Assembly (NCBI GenBank): GCA_022844345.1
Contig: JALHLU010000004.1
Location: 62,001-126,000 of the forward strand
Source of the DNA: Hyphomonadaceae bacterium
Lineage (GTDB): Bacteria; Pseudomonadota; Alphaproteobacteria; Caulobacterales; Hyphomonadaceae
Direction: 5' to 3'
DNA length: 64,000 bases
Part shown: positions 3,604-50,015 of the stretch, one piece after another
How positions within the stretch are numbered: position 1 is the stretch's first letter
Layout: each line of letters starts with the position of its first letter
The notes under the pieces: generated by a model
What the model saw: only the letters and a program-made list of their open reading frames with translations
Databases searched by the model: none
What the model was told of the DNA's origin: nothing
Program-made: the position numbers and the translations under genes

Positions 3604-4848
3604 GTGACCGCAACGCCCGCAAATACCCTTGAGTCTGAAGGCCCCTTGCCGGTCACCCTGGCCGATATTGAAGCGGCCGCCAAAGCCATCGCGGGCCAGG
3701 TCGAGCACACGCCGCTCCGCTATTCGCGCACGCTCAGCGAGATCACCGGCGCGCAGGTCTGGATCAAGTTCGAGAACCTGCAATTCACAGCCTCGTTCAA
3801 GGAGCGCGGAGCGCTCAACAAGCTGCTTTCGCTCTCGAACTCGGAAAAGGCTGCGGGTGTCATCGCCATGTCGGCCGGCAACCACGCGCAGGGCGTCGCC
3901 TATCACGCTGCGCGCCTTGGCATTCCGTCCACCATCGTGATGCCGAGAGGAACGCCTTTCGTGAAGATCGAGCACACGCGCAATTTCGGTGCGACGGTCA
4001 TCATCCATGGCGAGACCCTCGCCGACGCCGACGCCCATGCGCGCAAGCTTGAGAAGGAGCAGGGCCTCACATTCGTCCATCCGTTCGACGACAGGCACGT
4101 GATCGCCGGGCAGGGCACGATCGGTCTCGAAATCATGGAAGCGCTGCCTGATTTCGACGTGATGGTCATCCCGGTGGGCGGCGGCGGTCTTTCTGCGGGC
4201 ATTGCAACCGCGATCAAGTCGCGGCGCCCCGCGACATCGATCATCGGGGTTGAGCCTGCGCTCTATCCCTCTCTCTCCGCTGAACTGCGTGGCGAGGAGG
4301 CCAAGGTCGGCGGCGCCACCATTGCGGAAGGCATCGCTGTCAAGAAGGTCGGCAAGCTGACGGCGCAGATCCTGCGCAAGCTGATGGAGCGCGTCATCCT
4401 TGTCAGCGAGGATGATCTCGAGCGCGCCGTGACGCTGTTCGCCACCGTCGAGAAATCCGTCGCCGAGGGCGCGGGGGCTGCGGGCCTTGCCGCCCTGCTG
4501 GCCGAGCCGCACCTGTTCCGGGGGCGCAAGGTGGTTCTCGTGCTGTGCGGTGGCAATATCGACACGCGCCTGCTGGCGTCCGTCCTCACCCGCTCGCTGG
4601 TCCGCGAGAAGCGCATCACCTCCATCCGCATCATTGGTAACGACCAGCCGGGTCTGCTGGCGGCGGTGGCGACCGTCATCGGCGAGAATGGCGGGAACAT
4701 CATCGAGGTCAGCCATAACCGCATGGCGCTCGACGTTCCCGCGAAAGGCGCCGAGTTCGATATCACCATCGAAACGCGCGACGCCCTGCACACGCAGGAA
4801 ATCATCGACGCCCTGAACCGGGCGGGCTACCCGCCCCGGACGAACTGA
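3604..4848 (+). CDS. ilvA: Threonine ammonia-lyase (catabolic/biosynthetic type, ACT domain)
   Basis: A 414-aa PLP enzyme that deaminates threonine to 2-oxobutanoate, feeding isoleucine synthesis or threonine breakdown. The PLP lysine is K66 in FTASFKERGA, and the glycine loop that binds the cofactor phosphate is VGGGGLSAG near residue 192. The C-terminus holds a single ACT domain (about 338-410, IRIIGNDQPGLLAAVATVI). One short ACT domain matches the TdcB-like/short IlvA form rather than the long biosynthetic form with two ACT-like modules. The start codon is GTG. The gene symbol is a family call; tdcB would also be acceptable. Confidence 0.88.
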   Translation: MTATPANTLESEGPLPVTLADIEAAAKAIAGQVEHTPLRYSRTLSEITGAQVWIKFENLQFTASFKERGALNKLLSLSNSEKAAGVIAMSAGNHAQGVAYHAARLGIPSTIVMPRGTPFVKIEHTRNFGATVIIHGETLADADAHARKLEKEQGLTFVHPFDDRHVIAGQGTIGLEIMEALPDFDVMVIPVGGGGLSAGIATAIKSRRPATSIIGVEPALYPSLSAELRGEEAKVGGATIAEGIAVKKVGKLTAQILRKLMERVILVSEDDLERAVTLFATVEKSVAEGAGAAGLAALLAEPHLFRGRKVVLVLCGGNIDTRLLASVLTRSLVREKRITSIRIIGNDQPGLLAAVATVIGENGGNIIEVSHNRMALDVPAKGAEFDITIETRDALHTQEIIDALNRAGYPPRTN

Positions 4849-4968
4849 TTTGACGGACTGATTCCGGGCTCAGGAAGGCGTGAATGTTCGGCCCTCGCGT
4901 GGGGCCGAAAGCGATGCTAACACCCCCACGACATTCCCGGCGGGAATCAGAAAAAGAGGGATTCGCCG

Positions 4969-5886
4969 ATGATCCGCATGGCCCTGGCCGCACTGGCCGT
5001 CCTGACGCTTGCCGCGTGCAACCGCGCGGCCGTCGATGCCAAGGATCCCTGGGCGTCGCTGCAGCCTTGGGACCATGGCCGCCCTGGCGTTGAGAAGCTG
5101 GACTCCGGCGTCGAATACCTCGTCATCACCAAGGGCGATGGAAAGGGCGCCAGCCCCACGGCGCGCGACCGGGTCGAAGTCCGCTATGACGGCCGCATCG
5201 CCAAGTCCGGCCTGAAATTCGATTCCTCCTACGACCGTGGCGAGACCTCGACCTTCGAGGTCAACGGCGTCATCCCCGGCTGGCGCGATGGCCTGCAGAA
5301 GATGCAGCCGGGCGACATGTTCATGTTCTGGATCCCGTCAGCCCAGGGCTATGGCGAGCGCGGCGCCGGCATCGAGATCCCGCCCAATGCCGATCTGATG
5401 TTTCAGGTCGAACTCGTTCGCGTGCTTTCTGATCCGTGGCCCAGCGCCATGCCGTGGCCGACCGATGCGTCCGACATCGTGCGCCTGCCGTCCGGCCTCG
5501 AATACCGCTCCATCGAATCCGGCGCCCCCGAGGGCGGATCGCCCACCGATGGCGATGTCGTTCTGGTGCAGTTCGAAGGCCGCCTCGAAGACCCCGACTA
5601 TCAGGTGGGCGACACGCTGGAGGAGAAGCTGGATTCCAGCCTTGTCGTCTCCACCTACGACGAAGGCCAGCCGAAGCAGTTCCTCGTGTCCGGCCTCACG
5701 CCCGGCTGGCAGGAAGTGGTCAAGCTGATGCGCCCGGGCGATCGCTGGATGGTCCGCATCCCCGCACAGATCAACTATGGCGAGGACAGCGCGGATCGCA
5801 TCCCGCCGAACTCGACGGTGATCTACGAGATCGAGCTCCTGGCCTTCCAGGCGCCGGACCCGACGCAGATGCCGCCGCCGCAATAG
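4969..5886 (+). CDS. FKBP-type peptidyl-prolyl isomerase lipoprotein with two FKBP domains
   Basis: A 305-aa lipoprotein with lipobox LAAC (Cys17). Two FKBP modules follow in tandem, about residues 60-155 and 190-295. The first has VEVRYDGRI, GVIPGWRDGLQKMQPGD and IPPNADLMFQVEL; the second has VLVQFEGRL, GLTPGWQEVVKLMRPGD and IPPNSTVIYEIEL. These are the substrate-cradle strands of FKBP prolyl isomerases, so the likely role is folding of exported proteins in the periplasm. The second module carries a longer insertion after its first strand. SD-like AAAAAGAGGG precedes the ATG. The gene converges on the short GST-like gene with a 4-bp gap. Confidence 0.88.
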   Translation: MIRMALAALAVLTLAACNRAAVDAKDPWASLQPWDHGRPGVEKLDSGVEYLVITKGDGKGASPTARDRVEVRYDGRIAKSGLKFDSSYDRGETSTFEVNGVIPGWRDGLQKMQPGDMFMFWIPSAQGYGERGAGIEIPPNADLMFQVELVRVLSDPWPSAMPWPTDASDIVRLPSGLEYRSIESGAPEGGSPTDGDVVLVQFEGRLEDPDYQVGDTLEEKLDSSLVVSTYDEGQPKQFLVSGLTPGWQEVVKLMRPGDRWMVRIPAQINYGEDSADRIPPNSTVIYEIELLAFQAPDPTQMPPPQ

Positions 5887-40795: not shown

Positions 40796-43024
40796 ATGAG
40801 TCCTGTGGGTGCGTGTCTGAGAAGCGCCGGTTTCGCAGCGCTTGTGAGCGCAGGCGCACCCGCGCTGGCGCCGGAAGCACTCGCCCAGGGCGCAGATGAT
40901 CGCATCGTCGTTACAGCGACGCGCCAGGCCGAAGACGCCAGTGACCTACCCCAAAGTGTTGTGATCCTGTCCGGCGAACAACTTTCCAGCGCCGACAGTG
41001 CAGAAGAGGTCGTGCAACGTCTTGTCGGCGTGCAGGCGGCGATTTCGAACGGCTCGCAGGCCACGTTCCAGATTCGCGGCGTAGGCGCAGTCGATCACCA
41101 GGCGCTGACGCCCAGCGCCGCCGCCGTCCATGTCGATGGCGTGTTCCTGGCCACCAACGTGCAGGCGAGTCTGCTGGCTTACGATCTTGATCGCGTTGAG
41201 GTGCTCAAAGGACCGCAAGGAACGATCCAGGGCCGCAATGCTTCCAGCGGATCGATCAACTTCATCACGGCGCTGCCAACCGATACGTTTGAAGCCTATG
41301 CCCAAGCCTCTTACGGCAGTTTTGATCGCTTCGATGCGCAGGCCGCTGCAAGCGGACCGATAGGCGAGGGCGCGCGTGGGCGCGTTGCCATGCGCATGTT
41401 GAAGCAGGGGCCAGCGCTCGAGAATATCGGTGGTCCCGGCGATGCCGGCGGCGTGCGCGACGAGTTCGGGATTCGTGGCGCGCTAGCGCTTGACCTGTCG
41501 CCGGGGGTGGACCTGCTGTTGCGCGGCCACATCGAGGCGGATCAGGGCGTCAACCCTGCGCCGCTGAATTCTGCGCTCGTGCTCAATGATCATGAGATAT
41601 CAGTAGGCGCCGATGGCGTGCAGGATACCGACAACCGCTTCTTTGGCGCGTCCGCCGAACTGACCGCGGAAGCCGGCGACTGGCGCATCACGTCGATTAC
41701 ATCGTTCGAAGGCTTCGGGCAGAACTATGGTTTCGACTTCGACGGCCAGCCTGCCGCCATCGCCAACCTGTCCTACGACCGCAAATACTGGCAGGTCGCG
41801 CAGGAACTCTATGGCCGCACCAGCTGGGATGGCGGAGACCTGCTGATCGGCCTGTCGCTGTCGGCGGATGACTTCACGCAGGACTATCTCATCTGGTGCG
41901 GCCAGCTGAATTCGACGACGCTGGTTGGAAGCTGCGCCTATCCGGCCGCCGCCGCGCGTGTGGGCCCCACGCCGGCATCCACAGCGCCGGCTGTCTCGCT
42001 GCTCACCCGCATCGCGCAGACGCGCGAGATGGCCGCACTCTATGGCGTCGTCGATCTCGATCTTGGTCCGCAGACAACGCTCACGCTTGGCGGCCGCTAC
42101 ACGATGGAAAACATCGACGGCGAAGGCTTCGGCCAGCACATCTACGCCGACGGGGTGAAGGCGTTGAACAATCGCGGCGGCCTCGGCCTCGCGCAGGGTG
42201 CAAACACGATTGAGGAAGGCCGCTTCACCGGCATGACCGCGCTCAAGCATCGCTTCAGCGACGATCTCATGGCCTATGTCTCGTTTGGCCAGGGTTACAA
42301 GAGCGGCGGCTTCAATGGCGAGGTCGCCAACAACGTCACGCATTACCAGAATGAAGGCCTGTTCGGCGCCGAGACTGTCGATGCGTGGGAGGCCGGCCTG
42401 AAGGGCGCTCTTGGCGATACGCTCTCCTTCGAAGCGGCCGCATTCTGGCAGGACTACGATGCCCCGCAGGCGCGCATCTTCGTCTCCTTCCCGCTGCCCG
42501 GCGGCGGCGCGATCACATCCAATTCGCTCGCCAACCTCGACGCTGCCACGGTGCAGGGCGCAGAACTCTCGGCCCTGTGGCGCCCATACAATGCCTTCGA
42601 GATCGGCGCGGCCATCATGGCGCTCGACACGGAAATCGAGCAGACCACCGATGCGCCCGGCGGAAGCAATGTGGCGACGTTCGATGGCAAGCCATTGCCC
42701 TTCGCATCCGACATTTCGGCGACGCTGCATGCCCGCCATGAATGGACGCTGCCCGGCGACATGCAACTCGCGCTCGAGATGAACGCCAAGCACCAGGGCG
42801 AGTACTTCCTCGATGCCGAAGGCCGCGCCGACCGCAGGCAGGGGGCAATCACTCTTCTCGATGCCGCCGCCCGCCTGCGGTTGTCTGCCGGAACCGAGCT
42901 GTCCCTCTGGGGCCGCAACCTCCTGAACGAGGACTATGCGCTCTCGGGCTATGGTTTCATCGGCTACGACACGTTCAGGTCCCAGCCGGCCAGCTGGGGC
43001 GTTTCGGTGCGCGTGGATTGGTAG
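40796..43024 (+). CDS. TonB-dependent outer membrane receptor
   Basis: A 742-aa receptor. Signal peptide to about residue 31, TonB box-like DRIVVTATR, plug domain (LPQSVVILSGEQLSSADSAE, FQIRGVGAVDHQ, VEVLKGPQGTIQGRNASSGS), then a beta barrel ending in the outer membrane C-terminal signature GVSVRVDW with a terminal aromatic residue. It imports a ligand such as a siderophore or carbohydrate, but no neighbouring genes show which. ATG 40796 with GTGGGA upstream is chosen over GTG 40784. Confidence 0.92.
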   Translation: MSPVGACLRSAGFAALVSAGAPALAPEALAQGADDRIVVTATRQAEDASDLPQSVVILSGEQLSSADSAEEVVQRLVGVQAAISNGSQATFQIRGVGAVDHQALTPSAAAVHVDGVFLATNVQASLLAYDLDRVEVLKGPQGTIQGRNASSGSINFITALPTDTFEAYAQASYGSFDRFDAQAAASGPIGEGARGRVAMRMLKQGPALENIGGPGDAGGVRDEFGIRGALALDLSPGVDLLLRGHIEADQGVNPAPLNSALVLNDHEISVGADGVQDTDNRFFGASAELTAEAGDWRITSITSFEGFGQNYGFDFDGQPAAIANLSYDRKYWQVAQELYGRTSWDGGDLLIGLSLSADDFTQDYLIWCGQLNSTTLVGSCAYPAAAARVGPTPASTAPAVSLLTRIAQTREMAALYGVVDLDLGPQTTLTLGGRYTMENIDGEGFGQHIYADGVKALNNRGGLGLAQGANTIEEGRFTGMTALKHRFSDDLMAYVSFGQGYKSGGFNGEVANNVTHYQNEGLFGAETVDAWEAGLKGALGDTLSFEAAAFWQDYDAPQARIFVSFPLPGGGAITSNSLANLDAATVQGAELSALWRPYNAFEIGAAIMALDTEIEQTTDAPGGSNVATFDGKPLPFASDISATLHARHEWTLPGDMQLALEMNAKHQGEYFLDAEGRADRRQGAITLLDAAARLRLSAGTELSLWGRNLLNEDYALSGYGFIGYDTFRSQPASWGVSVRVDW

Positions 43025-43099
43025 GGTTGTTGCCAAGGCCTGTCAGCAGCGCGCTTCCGGGCTCTGGCGAACACGGTCGGTCCGGCCCATATTGCGGGC

Positions 43100-45403
<2,304 letters not shown>

Positions 45404-45427
45404 GATGGGAGCAGCGCAAAGGCCGAA

Positions 45428-45487
45428 ATGACCTTCGACACTCGTGACTGCCTGCGCGATCAGTTCTACGTGACGCCCACAGCCCCC
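45428..45487 (+). pseudogene. 5' fragment of an aspartate/glutamate leucyltransferase-like gene (bpt)
   Basis: The first 20 codons, MTFDTRDCLRDQFYVTPTAP, resemble the start of bacterial leucyl-tRNA-protein transferases (Bpt), whose proteins go on with CPYLPGR and a conserved core. Here similarity ends sharply and the frame runs on through unrelated sequence to a stop at 45634. The rest of bpt is not found elsewhere in this window. It marks the left edge of the AT-richer reverse transcriptase island. The family match is from memory of the family pattern, not a search. Confidence 0.45.
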
Positions 45488-45560
45488 GATCTAGCGCGTC
45501 AAGCGTTCATTTCTCAGGGGATACCCATAACCTGGACAAAAAGTTATCCACGCCAAGTCC

Positions 45561-45589
45561 TTGAAAGGCATGCGGGAAAATGCTATTTT
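45561..45589 (+). promoter_or_regulatory. Sigma-70-type promoter ahead of the reverse transcriptase
   Basis: TTGAAA (45561-45566), exactly 17 bases, TATTTT (45584-45589). Transcription would begin near 45596, about 258 nt before the proposed reverse transcriptase start, leaving a long untranslated leader. Confidence 0.5.
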
Positions 45590-45595
45590 GGAAGT

Positions 45596-45853
45596 CTATT
45601 AGGACCTTATGGTGCCGAAGTAGTGCTCGTATAGACTGTCAAGGCAAATCGTTGCGTCTAGGTGTAGAATTATTTCCTGCATCTTATGATCCTCGGTTTC
45701 TTTGGTTATGTCGGCCCCACGCTCCGCGTAGAGCCAACAATACAGTATATATGACTCCGTTTTAAAAGTGGTCGGGGTGGTAACACCCAATATCGTTGAA
45801 TGGGGAAGCGGCGTCCGAGCGTAGCCACACGTAAGCTCGCTTCCCCTCACACG
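45596..45853 (+). ncRNA. Candidate structured noncoding RNA of the reverse transcriptase system
   Basis: A roughly 258-nt stretch with no convincing frame, much richer in A/T than its surroundings, lying between a good promoter and the reverse transcriptase. Hairpins: TAGAC (45632-45636) plus GCAA (45644-45647) with TTGCGTCTA (45652-45660), leaving a 7-nt bulge; ACGC/GCGT (45719-45729); GGGTG (45775-45779)/CACCC (45784-45788); and a strong final stem GGGGAAGC (45802-45809) plus GAGC (45817-45820) with GCTCGCTTCCCC (45835-45846), again with a 7-nt left bulge. The final stem ends eight bases before the ATG. Upstream template RNAs of similar size are known for some defence reverse transcriptases; function here is inferred. 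Confidence 0.45.
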
Positions 45854-47332
45854 ATGATCGCATCCAGTCCTTGGGAACCTGAAGCCAGTGATTTGAAGCG
45901 GTACCGTCACTTTGATGGTCCGCTGAAGGTGGAAGAAATCAAGAGCTTGGTCCGCGATCCGATCGCGGTTGCGCGGCATGGGTTTCGGCCGTTGCTCCAT
46001 TTTGAAAAAGAATGGCGACGGGCGCCCAAGAAATTGCCGGACGGCACCTTGGAAAAGCGAGACAAGAAAACTCGGCCAATACGATATGCGTGCCGAAAAG
46101 ATTCTTACATCTACAAACACTATCGAGAGCTGCTGTCGGAGCTGTATGAAAAGCGGCTACACGAGCTCGCAATAGACAGCTGCGTGCTGGCTTATCGCCG
46201 CATTCCTGTCAGTGCTGGAGCTCCCGGCTGCAAGTCAAACATCCACTTCGCCGATGAAGCGTTCAAAGTCATAGCCAAGCTCGGCAAATGCTGCGCGGTG
46301 GCCATAGATGTTTCTAGCTTTTTTGACTCACTCAATCACGCGCGGTTGAAGGAGCGCTGGCAACAACTGCTCGGAGTTGATCGGCTTCCTGATGACCACT
46401 TCGCGGTCTTTCGCTCCATAACAGAATATAAGTTCGTGGATCGAGACGAGGCGTTCGTCGCCCTCGGATACTCGCGAATGGAAGATGGTGTGCCTCGCTA
46501 CGCAATTGACCCCCAAACCATCCCAACCCGACTCTGCACTCCGGCGGAATATCGAGACAAAATCGTATCGGGAGGGCTCGTCCAGCGGCATTCCGGTGTG
46601 TTTGGCATACCTCAAGGAACGCCGATCTCAGACGTGCTTGCCAACCTCTTTCTTATCGATTTTGACGTCGCAATGCAGAAGTACGCGCTCGGTCGTGGTG
46701 GTGTGTACATGCGCTATTGTGACGACATTCTCTTGATCTTACCCGGCGATGGGCGGGCGGCACGAGCCGCGTGTGCTCACGCGGCTCGTGAAATCAAAGA
46801 AGCTGGAGCTGAGCTCAAAATCAATCCGAGTAAGACGGAAGTGGTATGCTTCTCTGGCAAGCCAGAAAAGCGATGCTATGCGCTTGCGATTGCAAAAGGC
46901 ACGTCGCGCAAATTCAGAAAATCTCCGAACGACGGCATTTCGTACTTAGGGTTTCGGTTTGACGGTTCGTCTGTTTACTTGAGAAACAGCACGGTAGCGA
47001 ATTTACGCGGCAAAATCGCGCGTACTTGCCGCGCCGTGGCTCATCAACACATCAATCGTCATCCCGGGAAGGACCTAGCGTGGCTTCTCAGCCGGCTTCC
47101 AATTCGAGAGGTCGAGAATCGCTTTCTTCAAGTCCGCGACTTTGAAGAGGCAGTAAAGGATGCCAGCGAAAGGGGCGAGTCAGCATTTTCAGTCATGACC
47201 TTCTGGAGCTACGTCACCAGAGCTCAAGAGGTGTTCGGTGAAAGGGCTGTGGGACTTCTTCGTCAGTTGCGAAGCATTGATGCGCAAATAGAGTCGCATC
47301 TCCAAAAGGACGTCCAAAGAATCTACAAGTAG
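45854..47332 (+). CDS. Reverse transcriptase, probably of a defence-associated (UG/DRT-like) class
   Basis: A 492-aa protein from ATG 45854; an in-frame ATG at 45800 would add 18 residues coded by a hairpin. RT motifs are in order: N-terminal YRHFDGPLK and KKTRPIRYACRKDSYIYKHY, motif A AIDVSSFFDSL (catalytic Asp about residue 152), motif B GVFGIPQGTPISDVLANLF, motif C YMRYCDDILLIL (YCDD, about 288-291), then LKINPSKTEVVCF and ISYLGFRFDG. There is no maturase, endonuclease or protease domain, so it is not a normal group II intron RT. The C-terminal 130 residues are helical with no known domain. Codon use is AT-richer than its neighbours, a sign of transfer. No ribosome site is visible before either start. 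Confidence 0.88.
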   Translation: MIASSPWEPEASDLKRYRHFDGPLKVEEIKSLVRDPIAVARHGFRPLLHFEKEWRRAPKKLPDGTLEKRDKKTRPIRYACRKDSYIYKHYRELLSELYEKRLHELAIDSCVLAYRRIPVSAGAPGCKSNIHFADEAFKVIAKLGKCCAVAIDVSSFFDSLNHARLKERWQQLLGVDRLPDDHFAVFRSITEYKFVDRDEAFVALGYSRMEDGVPRYAIDPQTIPTRLCTPAEYRDKIVSGGLVQRHSGVFGIPQGTPISDVLANLFLIDFDVAMQKYALGRGGVYMRYCDDILLILPGDGRAARAACAHAAREIKEAGAELKINPSKTEVVCFSGKPEKRCYALAIAKGTSRKFRKSPNDGISYLGFRFDGSSVYLRNSTVANLRGKIARTCRAVAHQHINRHPGKDLAWLLSRLPIREVENRFLQVRDFEEAVKDASERGESAFSVMTFWSYVTRAQEVFGERAVGLLRQLRSIDAQIESHLQKDVQRIYK

Positions 47333-47346
47333 TTAGCGACGCTTCG

Positions 47347-47416
47347 CGTCGCGTAGGGTGCATTGAGCGCAGCGAAATGCACCATCGCGCCATGTCCGCG
47401 AGAGGTGCATTTCAGC
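47347..47416. repeat. Dispersed palindromic repeat, copy 1
   Basis: Contains GGTGCATT (47357-47364) / AATGCACC (47376-47383) and a third arm GGTGCATTT at 47404-47412. Copy 2 at 47972-48040 has the same order and close identity across about 68 bases. The pair flanks the 140-aa secreted protein gene as direct repeats. Confidence 0.7.
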
Positions 47417-47459
47417 TTCTGCCTTCAGGACACCTGCGGCGATGTCTTCATTGCCCCAA

Positions 47460-47882
47460 TTAGTCTGCGAATGGCACCCACGCCGTGGTCTCCGACCCGC
47501 CCCTGCCTGTGAGCGTGGTCAGCGTCCAAGTTTGGCCTGTGGACGTGTCCATCAGGAATGTGTGCTTCGCGGCCAGCCCGGATGAGAAAATCATGAAGCG
47601 CGCAATCTTATCCGATTTGCATTGGTCGAGCCCGACTACCGACGTCGATTCCCAAGCGTTTTCATCCTCGGCAGTACGCACGAGCTGCCAAACACTTCCG
47701 CACGTGCGATCAAGCCGAAACGTCCATTTGGCTGCCAGCTGCGACTGAACGATCTCGTATCTCGCATTGTTGGAAATAGTCGTCATCGCATGGGGGGAGG
47801 TTTGCACTTGCGCGTGTGCGGCCCCTTGTGATGCGCCGACAATCGCAATCCACAACACAGCGGCGATGACTGAAGTCTTCAT
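47460..47882 (-). CDS. Secreted protein with an internal duplication
   Basis: A 140-aa protein with a signal peptide (MKTSVIAAVLWIAIVGASQG, cleavage near AHAQ). The mature part is two similar units of about 45 residues: RYEIVQSQLAAKWTFRLD with GSVWQL, then RFMIFSSGLAAKHTFLMD with GQTWTL. Two Cys lie in unit 1 and the linker. No family recognised. ATG 47882 has GGGGGA seven bases upstream. It lies within the AT-richer island, opposite in direction to the reverse transcriptase, between two copies of a palindromic repeat. Confidence 0.65.
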   Translation of the reverse strand: MKTSVIAAVLWIAIVGASQGAAHAQVQTSPHAMTTISNNARYEIVQSQLAAKWTFRLDRTCGSVWQLVRTAEDENAWESTSVVGLDQCKSDKIARFMIFSSGLAAKHTFLMDTSTGQTWTLTTLTGRGGSETTAWVPFAD

Positions 47883-47971
47883 AGTTTGATCCCCCATGTT
47901 TCGCATGCTCAGAGTCGTAAGTCTGTCGTTTCAGATTACGGGTGTTGTTTGGCCGAGTCGACGGCTCTCCG

Positions 47972-48040
47972 CGTCGCGTCGGTGCATTGAGCAGCGCGAA
48001 ATGCACCGTCGCGCAACGTTCGCGAGAAGTGCATTTCGGC
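47972..48040. repeat. Dispersed palindromic repeat, copy 2
   Basis: GGTGCATT (47981-47988) / AATGCACC (48000-48007), followed by AGTGCATTTCGG near 48029-48040. Matches copy 1 (47347-47416) in the same orientation. Confidence 0.7.
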
Positions 48041-48147
48041 CGTTGGCCTCAATGCACGCTACGGGCGGCGTTTCTGTCATGTCATTCTCGCCGGAGCCCG
48101 AAGGGTGAAGAGCGGGAAGCCAGGGGCTGCGGGCGCCGGTGCTTGCC

Positions 48148-48195
48148 GCTCCTGGGTTCCGGCTCGCACGCTGGCGCGTGCGTCCGGAATGACAG
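48148..48195. repeat. Intergenic repeat of the GCTCCTGGG...ATGACA type, copy 1
   Basis: Begins GCTCCTGGGTTCCGGCTC, has a variable middle, and ends CCGGAATGACA. Inner arms TTCCGG / CCGGAA pair. A second copy with TCCCGG / CCGGGA arms lies at 48968-49016. Compensating changes in the arms suggest the stem is maintained. Confidence 0.6.
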
Positions 48196-48471
48196 GTGAG
48201 GATGTAGCGACATCCGCCGGGTTTTGCCGGGCGGCCCCCTTCCGCCTTCGCTGCGCTTCGGCGCGACGAGCCGTCATCCGCGCTGACGCGCGGCTGCCAC
48301 CTCCCCCGCCTTCAGCCTGCGCTCTTCGAGCTTCGGCGGACAGGTCGCCGGGGCAGGACGAGTGCTCTCCATCCTACACCTGGAATCGTCAGTGGGCTGA
48401 TGGGGTTGGGGTTTTTGGAAAAGTGCGCGGCGACTTTCCCCGTCCCCTCGGGGCGGGCGTATTATGCGCGC

Positions 48472-48867
48472 ATGACGAAACGCAGAACGCATCCGGGCGA
48501 TACCGGGGACTCGCGGCGGCTGGCTTTGGCGGACGGGCGCGGGGGACTGAATGGGTGGCTGGCGGCTGAGGAGGCTCGGCTGGCGGAGTTCGAGGCGGCG
48601 GTGGAGCGCGCGCCGATCTCGATACGGCGGGGGCGGTGGCTCGAGCGGCGCGTGCCGGAGTGGGCGGCGGATGCGCGCGTGAAGTTCGCGGCAGCGCGGA
48701 AGACATACCGGCTGGCCCTGTTGCTGGGCGGCGGGGGGAAGCATCTCGACGCGATGGAGGCGCGGCAGGCGGCGGCGTTCGCGCGCGTGCTGGAGCGGGT
48801 GGCGGAGGAGCGGGCGAAGGGATGGCCGCGGCGGACGCTTTATGGGGCGGGGCCGGAGGTGGGGTGA
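48472..48867 (+). CDS. Uncharacterised basic protein
   Basis: A 131-aa Ala/Arg-rich protein (MTKRRTHPGDTGDSRRLALA, later RKTYRLALLLGGGGKHLDAM) with helical character and no recognised domain. It has no clear ribosome site. Its codons end heavily in G, unlike genes left of 45 kb. It lies between two copies of an intergenic repeat. The coding status is plausible but not certain. Confidence 0.45.
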   Translation: MTKRRTHPGDTGDSRRLALADGRGGLNGWLAAEEARLAEFEAAVERAPISIRRGRWLERRVPEWAADARVKFAAARKTYRLALLLGGGGKHLDAMEARQAAAFARVLERVAEERAKGWPRRTLYGAGPEVG

Positions 48868-48967
48868 GCGACGGCGCCGCAGGCGCGATTTGGTCCGGGG
48901 GACCAAATCGAGGAGCGAACGCCTGAGCGCAAGCGAAGGCCGGGGGGCGGCACACACCGACCTTGCG

Positions 48968-49016
48968 GCTCCTGGGTCCCGGCTCTCCGCGCTTTGCGCT
49001 ACGGCCGGGATGACAC
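48968..49016. repeat. Intergenic repeat of the GCTCCTGGG...ATGACA type, copy 2
   Basis: GCTCCTGGGTCCCGGCTC at the left and GGCCGGGATGACAC at the right, with arms TCCCGG / CCGGGA. Same orientation as copy 1 at 48148-48195. Confidence 0.6.
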
Positions 49017-49078
49017 GTAGAGGGTGTGGGTGCAGTGTCTTCGCGCAGAGTAGATTGGGGCGCAGAGGAGATACGCTC

Positions 49079-49507
49079 ATGACCCATCCGCAGATTCCGG
49101 ACACCATTGTTCGCTGGCATCGCATTGCGCTGGAGCGGCGGGCGGACGATCTGGCGGGGATACTGGCGGAGGACTGCGTGTTCGAGAGCCCCGTGGTGCA
49201 CACGCCGCAGGCGGGGAAGGCGAAGGTCGAGACCTATCTGCGCGGGGCGCTGCATGTGCTGAACACGGAGCACTTCCGGTATGGCGGGGAGTGGTATGCG
49301 GAGCGGTCCGCCGTGCTGGAATTCTTCTCGGTGGTGGACGGGGTCACGATCAATGGCGTCGATATCATTGCGTGGAATGACGCGGGGCTGATCACGCACT
49401 TCAAGGTGATGGTGCGGCCGCTGAAGGCGATCAACACGCTGCACGCGAAGATGGCGGAGTATCTGGTCTCCGTGGGGGCCGTGCCGGCGAGCGTGCTGAC
49501 GCGCTGA
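49079..49507 (+). CDS. NTF2/SnoaL-like family protein
   Basis: A 142-aa protein with the cone-shaped NTF2-like pattern: RWHRIALERRADDLAGILAE, then EDCVFESPVVHTPQAGKAKV and DAGLITHFKVMVRPLKAINT. Members include isomerases, hydrolases and ligand-binding proteins; no catalytic residues stand out. GAGGAG lies eight bases before the ATG. Confidence 0.75.
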   Translation: MTHPQIPDTIVRWHRIALERRADDLAGILAEDCVFESPVVHTPQAGKAKVETYLRGALHVLNTEHFRYGGEWYAERSAVLEFFSVVDGVTINGVDIIAWNDAGLITHFKVMVRPLKAINTLHAKMAEYLVSVGAVPASVLTR

Positions 49508-49568
49508 AAAAAGTTATCCTACACCGCACTGACCTGAGTCGATCATGCGCCTCCTGATGGAGGTGATG

Positions 49569-50015
49569 ATGGCGCGGTCATACGCGGAGACGATGGGGCT
49601 GGAGTTCGAGGCCGAGCGGCTGGTGCGGATGGGGGAGTCGCGCGCCGAGGTGTCGCGGCGGCTGGGCGTGCATCCGCAGACGCTGGCGGGGTGGGCGCTG
49701 CGCGGCGGGTGGCGCAAGAAGGATCTCGACCTGGAGCGCAATGCGGACCTGACGCGGCGCACGCTGGCGGCGATCCGCGATGGCAATGCGGCGGTGGACG
49801 CCGAGCATGCGCTGCGGGCGCGGATGCGGGCGTTCATGCGCGAGGCGGTGGAGCTGCTGGCGGCGGGGGACGCGGAGGCGCTGGCCGAGCTCGACCGGCG
49901 GCTGGCGGGCGTCGGCCAGGTGGAGCGCCTGCCGCCGCCGGAGGGGCCAGACCTGTCGCGCGCGGGGGCAGGCGGGCTGGGCGCCCAGGCGGATGTGGAG
50001 CGGGATGCGGATTAG
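49569..50015 (+). CDS. Helix-turn-helix protein of unknown role
   Basis: A 148-aa protein with an N-terminal helix-turn-helix (ESRAEVSRRLGVHPQTLAGW, about residues 21-40) resembling those of small terminase subunits and transposase DNA-binding domains, followed by helical, Ala/Glu-rich sequence (AAGDAEALAELDRRLAGV). ATG 49569 has GGAGG five bases upstream and is preferred over the ATG at 49545. No phage genes adjoin it, so regulator versus phage remnant is undecided. Confidence 0.6.
   Translation: MARSYAETMGLEFEAERLVRMGESRAEVSRRLGVHPQTLAGWALRGGWRKKDLDLERNADLTRRTLAAIRDGNAAVDAEHALRARMRAFMREAVELLAAGDAEALAELDRRLAGVGQVERLPPPEGPDLSRAGAGGLGAQADVERDAD

Follow-up and report, generated by a model that had tools for sequence, protein, structure and literature searches.

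The reverse transcriptase (RT) system described here is a member of the DRT2 (UG2) family, as its protein sequence, its fold, and the layout of its template show. It lies in a 64,000-nucleotide stretch of DNA from a Hyphomonadaceae bacterium (hereafter the window). Within the family it is a variant in its jump motif and, most probably, in its product. We file it as a DRT2 variant rather than as a canonical carrier of neo because its 130-nt repeat unit has no endless frame at the junction used across the family. Our overall explanation, that this DRT2 system would give discrete Neo proteins whose translation is coupled from stop to start, is inferred from sequence alone, and we prefer it by a narrow margin. 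The defence function of the locus is likewise an inference, and there are no expression, cDNA, or phage data.

The RT belongs to DRT2

The RT open reading frame (ORF) comprises 510 codons, and its protein carries the motifs IDVSSFF, GIPQG, and YCDD, all intact. RVT_1 is its sole Pfam domain, and searches of Pfam up to E 0.1 detected no maturase, endonuclease, or protease domain. The gene has a GC content of 53.2% and a GC3 of 0.57, compared with 63.9% and 0.88 for the adjoining uvrB.

45800 to 47332, plus strand: DRT2 reverse transcriptase, starting at 45800 or 45854 (protein models, structure, motifs)

The PADLOC Drt2 model matched this protein at 432.9 bits (E=4.9e-130) and exceeded every differently named PADLOC model by >350 bits. 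The NCBIfam Drt2 model scored 360 bits, under its cut-off of 390, and therefore we consider the RT a divergent member of DRT2. The best three sequence matches in the PDB are all DRT2 (E 6.8e-68 for the DRT2 chains). Moreover, an AlphaFold model of the RT (pLDDT 90.4) had as its best Foldseek match 9c0i, a DRT2 RT with its ncRNA (E 4.6e-34, TM 0.72/0.82).

Could the RT belong to another class, either DRT9, a retron, or the remnant of a group II intron? What speaks for this reading is weak similarity of the kind common to RTs: 49.5 bits for the PADLOC Drt9 model, 43.8 bits for the highest PADLOC model described as a retron, at most 43 bits for the NCBIfam retron models (cut-offs of at least 235), and 63.6 bits for the group II maturase model TIGR04416 (cut-off 300). 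Against it stand the margin of Drt2 over the other PADLOC models, the wide margin by which DRT2 is the nearest fold (the second Foldseek match, a group II intron RT, has E 2e-11), and the lack of any Rfam match in 43000-50000 (up to E 1). We regard another class as all but excluded.

The initial annotation had described a stand-alone RT with these motifs, without maturase, endonuclease, or protease domain, and with AT-richer codon use than its neighbors. These claims held, the last of them against uvrB. Its inference of an RNA-templated defence RT is supported, with DRT2 membership resting on sequence and layout and defence still inferred. Of the two groups it had proposed as possibly near, UG2/DRT2 held and UG28/DRT9 did not (432.9 vs 49.5 bits). 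It had named placement among group II introns or retrons as a refutation; protein models and Rfam gave no such placement, although no dedicated msr-msd search was made.

Joined template copies would build a promoter

Aligning the window with its two nearest relatives revealed conserved blocks upstream of the RT. On the cDNA strand two of these blocks read TTGACA and TATACT, in an order that is wrong for a promoter. KpnDRT2 has the same inverted order of -35 and -10, and there the joining of repeats rebuilds a promoter with a 17-bp spacer and creates the endless frame neo (PMC12039810, PMC11100668). The corresponding elements of the window are as follows.

45629 to 45758, minus strand: predicted template unit of 130 nt with junction GT/GT (CGT at 45628-45630 and at 45758-45760)
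45637 to 45642, minus strand: -35 element TTGACA on the cDNA (motif model)
45744 to 45749, minus strand: -10 element TATACT on the cDNA, which comes to lie 17 bp from the -35 only when copies are joined

A two-block motif model was built iteratively from upstream DNA, using 86 regions and 19 seeds and no reading frames. The 86 regions were the window, 80 loci from a contig scan with a nine-protein alignment (the best 80 of 175 relatives; 95 weaker ones were left out), 3 loci from viral contigs, and 2 other loci. A score >20 counted as a pass. By this measure 65 of the 86 upstream regions carry the DRT2 layout (scores 29-71), including the window at 40.9, while the maximum among controls was 3.5 for 325 shuffled regions and 0.4 for 65 coding regions.

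Each unit was taken to begin 8 nt before TGTCAA and to end 9 nt past the -10, a definition under which the spacer is always 17. This value was taken from the published promoter and from our own earlier trials, which were made with multiples of three in view. Setting the spacer thus leaves open one choice among three residues, and the same choice was applied to all loci. Allowing for it leaves the family outcome unchanged, but the 130 nt of the window depends on the spacer rule.

With the 17-bp spacer, GT stands at both family junction positions in 55 of the 65 regions. After reduction of the 65 to 51 non-redundant units, 49 had a length divisible by three (binomial 2e-21). All 49 of these are open on the cDNA strand, in one register relative to the -10; shuffling the middle of the unit left a mean of 12.6 and a maximum of 22 of the 49 open. 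Of the remaining two cDNA frames 3 of 98 were open, and of the sense frames 29 of 147. The start codon picked by its ribosome site is ATG in 42 of the 49 units, and 42 reach the ribosome-site threshold (the score gives ATG a bonus). The distance from start codon to junction is 24-57 nt, with a median of 51, and spanning the junction is a motif resembling LDSLN-VVVYTV that is common to the Neo repeats. Three loci were found later and lie outside the 51: L111, which is treated below, and L012 and L112, which fit out of sample (divisible by three and open). We therefore conclude from these counts that the KpnDRT2 principle holds in the mostly alphaproteobacterial clade of the window, with a GT/CGT jump instead of ACA.

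Exact microhomology alone was tried as the junction rule and rejected. At least 3 matching nt at the 17-bp spacing occur in only 29 of 65 regions, and 46 of 65 show some microhomology at another spacing. The junction rule thus rests on the positions of the motifs.

The other 21 regions did not pass, and one of them (L063) had too little upstream DNA. Among the remaining 20, 13 gave a unit divisible by three with frame 0 open. We counted none of these 13, as 9 do not exceed the 3.5 that controls can reach. The remaining seven (L066, L086, L087, L088, L089, L091, and L097) gave no such unit. We also tried 8 plasmid loci: L124 and L126 are divisible by three and open at motif scores below the threshold (9.4 and 10.1), L131 is so at control level, and five showed nothing clear.

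Two side observations concern other loci. Four more DRT2-like RT loci (L006-L009) come from the same taxonomic order as the window, and at their best-scoring place the unit is divisible by three with cDNA frame 0 open; their motif scores are low (-4.2 to 10.7). The Vibrio loci L084, L090, and L092, with a TAACA microhomology and an endless unit of 120 nt, resemble KpnDRT2.

A conserved leader predicted to be a structured RNA

Directly upstream of the RT lies a conserved structured ncRNA. Its conservation is shown by motifs shared with relatives; the RNA itself is predicted. The predicted fold of the leader consists of a 5' hairpin, a stem that closes the template, and a 3' hairpin.

45561 to 45589, plus strand: promoter-like site before the ncRNA, TTGAAA-17 nt-TATTTT (weak alone)
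45596 to 45855, plus strand: predicted ncRNA of ~260 nt, ends inferred (fold, conserved blocks in relatives)
45596 to 45623, plus strand: 5' hairpin, analogous to the 5' handle of KpnDRT2 (predicted fold)
45802 to 45846, plus strand: 3' hairpin, GGGGAAGC.../...GCTTCCCC (fold; GGG/CCC hairpin in relatives)

The leader folds at -84.3 kcal/mol (z -2.6), and 3 of 200 shuffles were equally stable. The CCGAAGTAG block of the 5' hairpin is identical in L002 and has one mismatch in L010. Each of the 65 3' domains was also folded singly: in 43 the longest helix pairs a 5' arm containing GGG with a 3' arm containing CCC, and in the other 22 it failed this test. The arms of the 3' hairpin vary yet pair, as in GGGGAAG/CTTCCCC, GGGACAGGAGC/GCTCCTGTCCC, and GGGGCGACAAC/GTTGTCGCCCC. 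RNAalifold predicted zero pairs on a loose alignment of 28 3' domains, and therefore we claim no formal covariation for this hairpin.

The initial annotation had proposed a structured, untranslated leader of 260 nt behind its own promoter. The structured leader held, with motif conservation in relatives being much stronger evidence than the fold. The promoter site is present and is statistically weak by itself (1 found vs 0.6 expected in shuffles). That the leader is untranslated held only in part: ATG 45800 sits at the base of the 3' hairpin, and the coding start of the RT is uncertain (45800 or 45854), because in two close relatives the fourth codon after the matching ATG is a stop. The RT reading frame was seen to enter the hairpin (45800-45860). 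Within the stretch examined, L015, L061, and L019 have no ATG, GTG, or TTG after the hairpin, and therefore the RT start may lie within the ncRNA; a TTG or GTG inside the hairpin is one possibility for these relatives. An earlier idea, that the RT must start downstream of 45800, was withdrawn after the start codons of relatives were compared.

Relatives of the window system

In a tree of 84 RTs, the window falls in a four-member clade with L019, L015, and L061 (support 100/99), which adjoins the remaining DRT2s of long form, most of them alphaproteobacterial. The tree omits L018 and L044, whose straight translation breaks early. The pairs L002/L015, L010/L061, and L019/L110 are each one record present twice. 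This subclade has its own ncRNA 3' domain (TCGTTGAATGGGG).

No further members of the subclade beyond those three pairs were found at E 1e-30 to 1e-60 in overlapping genome sets: 398 genomes of the order, 385 of the class, 105 of the window's own family, 137 of the family of G247, 2 of the order of G519, 60 of the family of G072, 327 of the class (other center), and 75 of the genus of G1019. A set of 390 genomes from the family of G106 gave L111, which is outside the subclade and groups with L043, L051, and L057 (96/96).

Mobile elements were searched as well. A 16-base motif of the 3' domain matched 12 viral contigs, none of which encodes this RT (one 35-residue match, E 0.62). An initial scan of viral contigs with the protein gave no match, alignment-based scans gave 3 and 1 loci (the last being L113), and the leader DNA had no match in plasmids. 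On one IMG/VR contig, L095, the system is a close copy of the one in Sulfitobacter L040, and therefore such systems may ride on prophages. Clade members also occur in records labelled Acidobacteriota and Actinomycetota (L047, L069, and L023), labels that suggest either wide transfer or misbinned contigs.

How does the window compare with known systems? It shares with KpnDRT2 (PMC12039810, PMC11100668; PDB 9c0i) the RT fold, an upstream ncRNA with a central template, -35 and -10 elements that are out of order and come to lie 17 bp apart across the junction, and an ORF antisense to the ncRNA. The two differ in jump motif (GT/CGT in the window, ACA in KpnDRT2), in the distance from -10 to start codon (~60 nt versus 13), in RT length (492-510 aa versus 425), and in the unit, which is divisible by three in KpnDRT2, whereas that of the window is 130 nt and its ORF stops at the next start. 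With the alphaproteobacterial long DRT2 clade (L025, L050, L075) the window shares the GT/CGT junction, TTGACA/TATACT, and the 17-bp spacer. Also in common are a 3' GGGG.../...CCCC hairpin, present in many members of that clade, and an LDSLN-VVVYTV-like Neo motif spanning the junction. The units of the clade are divisible by three and endless, while those of the window, L019, and L111 are neither. The nearest relatives, L061/L010 and L015/L002, have RTs 52-56% identical to that of the window, belong to its RT subclade, and share its ncRNA 3' domain. Unlike the window, they have a 120-nt unit with an endless frame.

Three predicted ORFs stop where the next one starts

Among the 51 units, two have lengths that are not multiples of three: the window (130 nt) and L019 (125 nt). 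The third exception, L111 (122 nt), came from the later genome search and was examined after the idea had formed. In all three, an ORF of 42 codons with a ribosome site and an ATG crosses the junction, and its stop falls within 4 nt of the start in the next repeat. The ORFs of the window and L019 cross the junction in the family frame and then run through the -10 region. Stop and start meet as TAA-G-ATG in the window, where the TAA lies one nt before the next ATG; as ATGA in L019, where the TGA overlaps the next ATG; and as ATGGTGA in L111, where the TGA begins 4 nt into the next start. The shared length of 42 codons may be chance.

45680 to 45694, minus strand: ribosome-binding site GAGG (45694-45691), TAA that ends the ORF of the previous repeat (45686-45684), and start ATG (45682-45680), on the cDNA
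45629 to 45682, minus strand: codons 1-18 of the predicted 42-codon ORF, ending at the junction (ORF reading)
45684 to 45758, minus strand: last 24 codons and stop of the 42-codon ORF, in the next cDNA repeat (ORF reading)

One rival reading is that of an ordinary DRT2 system with a never-ending Neo, in which the RT would jump at CTC rather than CGT.

45626 to 45757, no strand assigned: rival junction CTC (45626-45628) to CTC (45755-45757), which would give a unit of 129 nt, a spacer of 16 bp, and an endless frame whose register differs

This junction lies two nt further out than the CGT junction of the family. In its favor are the CTC microhomology at 129 nt and a cDNA frame that stays open through the ATG; no stop interrupts the frame of the ATG itself upstream as far as the family junction. 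However, 55 of 65 regions have GT at both family positions with the 17-bp spacer, and the window has CGT there. Accidental microhomology alternatives that are divisible by three and open occur in 20 of 65 regions, hence one of them is unremarkable. Moreover, the frame after the CTC junction differs from the family frame, and the reading cannot extend to L019: both of its other frames are closed between -10 and ATG, and no junction would render it endless. We consider this reading unlikely for the window. In L111 the stretch from the junction to just short of the start is free of stops in all three frames, and therefore an endless frame could survive a shifted jump there. L019, where TCGTT matches over 5 nt at the family junction, is the firmest stop-start case, despite having the longest RT branch of the three.

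A second rival is decay: RT and ncRNA would be intact, the template would have drifted out of frame, and defence would be lost. The multiple of three kept in 49 of 51 non-redundant units speaks for this, as do the RT branches of L019 (1.46-1.63) and L111 (1.23), which are long against medians of 0.37-0.49 and could mean decay. Against it, the RT branch of the window is ordinary (0.42); the -35 and -10, the ribosome site and ATG, and the motifs of the RT have all stayed intact; and the RTs of all three loci keep YxDD and long ORFs. The positions of the stops also speak against decay. As a null, a frameshift was placed at any codon of each endless unit and the position of the first stop was recorded. 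Among 4202 frameshift positions, 12.0% stop within -4..+4 of the next start, which gives ~0.002 for three loci; in a null restricted to ORFs that get as far as the next start region, the value is 23.5% each. The interval of -4..+4 was set after seeing the three loci, and three loci are few. With three of three stops at the next start, simple decay is unlikely, yet a decayed neo remains possible, and neither it nor a CTC jump that restores the endless frame of the window is excluded.

Finally, a one-base sequencing or assembly error in the template could make the unit appear out of frame, and the window sequence does rest on one assembly. Two further loci in other assemblies show the arrangement with different lengths, which makes such an error very unlikely. 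The differing unit lengths (130, 125, and 122), together with trees that need at least 2 changes between the endless and stop-start states, also indicate that this is not one state inherited by simple descent.

Genomic setting

The RT locus is inserted after uvrB. Positions 44600-49600 were searched against 15 genomes of the genus, the window's own included. In the 14 others, the matches examined lie in uvrB, in the downstream SnoaL-like gene, and in short interspersed repeats, and none of them falls inside the RT gene; a search of these 14 with the RT protein gave no match at E 1e-30. In G385, the end of uvrB (C45:3602-4404) is ~400 bp from the SnoaL-like stretch (4813-5184). Since the RT is absent from the matches in its genus relatives, the locus looks like an insertion, probably one particular to this strain.

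Short interspersed repeats within the RT-bearing insertion (47331-47419, 48080-48194, and 48861-48944) match many places across the genomes of the genus. Just after uvrB, 45429-45540 is a short open stretch (MTFDTRDCLRDQFYVTPTAP...), possibly a cut gene start; it had no Pfam match up to E 0.01.

Discussion

By inference from published work on KpnDRT2, the RT would bind the ncRNA and copy its template. On reaching CGT at the template 5' end, it would jump to the CGT beyond the 3' end and repeat the copying, yielding tandem cDNA. The joined copies would unite -35 and -10, 17 bp apart on the cDNA strand, into a promoter, and an mRNA absent from the genome would be made on infection. We are highly confident of a DRT2 system with such a junction promoter. 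As the repeat of 130 nt is not divisible by three, the protein would not be endless: each repeat would offer a ribosome site, an ATG, and a 42-codon ORF across the junction, ending in TAA one nt before the next ATG. Ribosomes would terminate and restart, and the resulting stream of separate 42-residue Neo-like toxins would arrest the cell. That these one-lap ORFs are the working product in the window could as readily be wrong as right. The single-repeat Neo of KpnDRT2 is weakly toxic (PMC12039810), and so separate monomers might work poorly.

A bolder reading, against which we lean slightly, is that some DRT2s, the window included, make no never-ending protein at all. The rolling-circle cDNA would act as an operon in which one small gene recurs in tandem; this gene would be interrupted in the genome, and only the jump would complete it. 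Each copy would stop at the start of the next, and translation would pass along by termination and restart. The state changes, at least 2, might most simply reflect separate origins from endless ancestors. We saw no terminated or stop-start neo in the open-access literature searched, including PMC12596737 and PMC12632851; supplementary files and most subscription papers were outside this search. Neo was found by its absence of in-frame stops and is harder to annotate in divergent clades, for which alternative mechanisms have been suggested as a possibility (PMC11100668).

What would these systems offer? With the GT/CGT junction and its fixed 17-bp spacer, Neo can be read in 49 of the 51 non-redundant templates, which are varied material on which to test how the jump is set. 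The stop-start copies raise the question of whether toxicity needs one long, stop-less repetitive chain, and with it ribosome rescue, or whether separate repeats suffice. Searches that require the absence of a stop codon would miss such systems. If experiments confirm it, the making of separate small proteins instead of an endless protein would be a new twist on DRT2.
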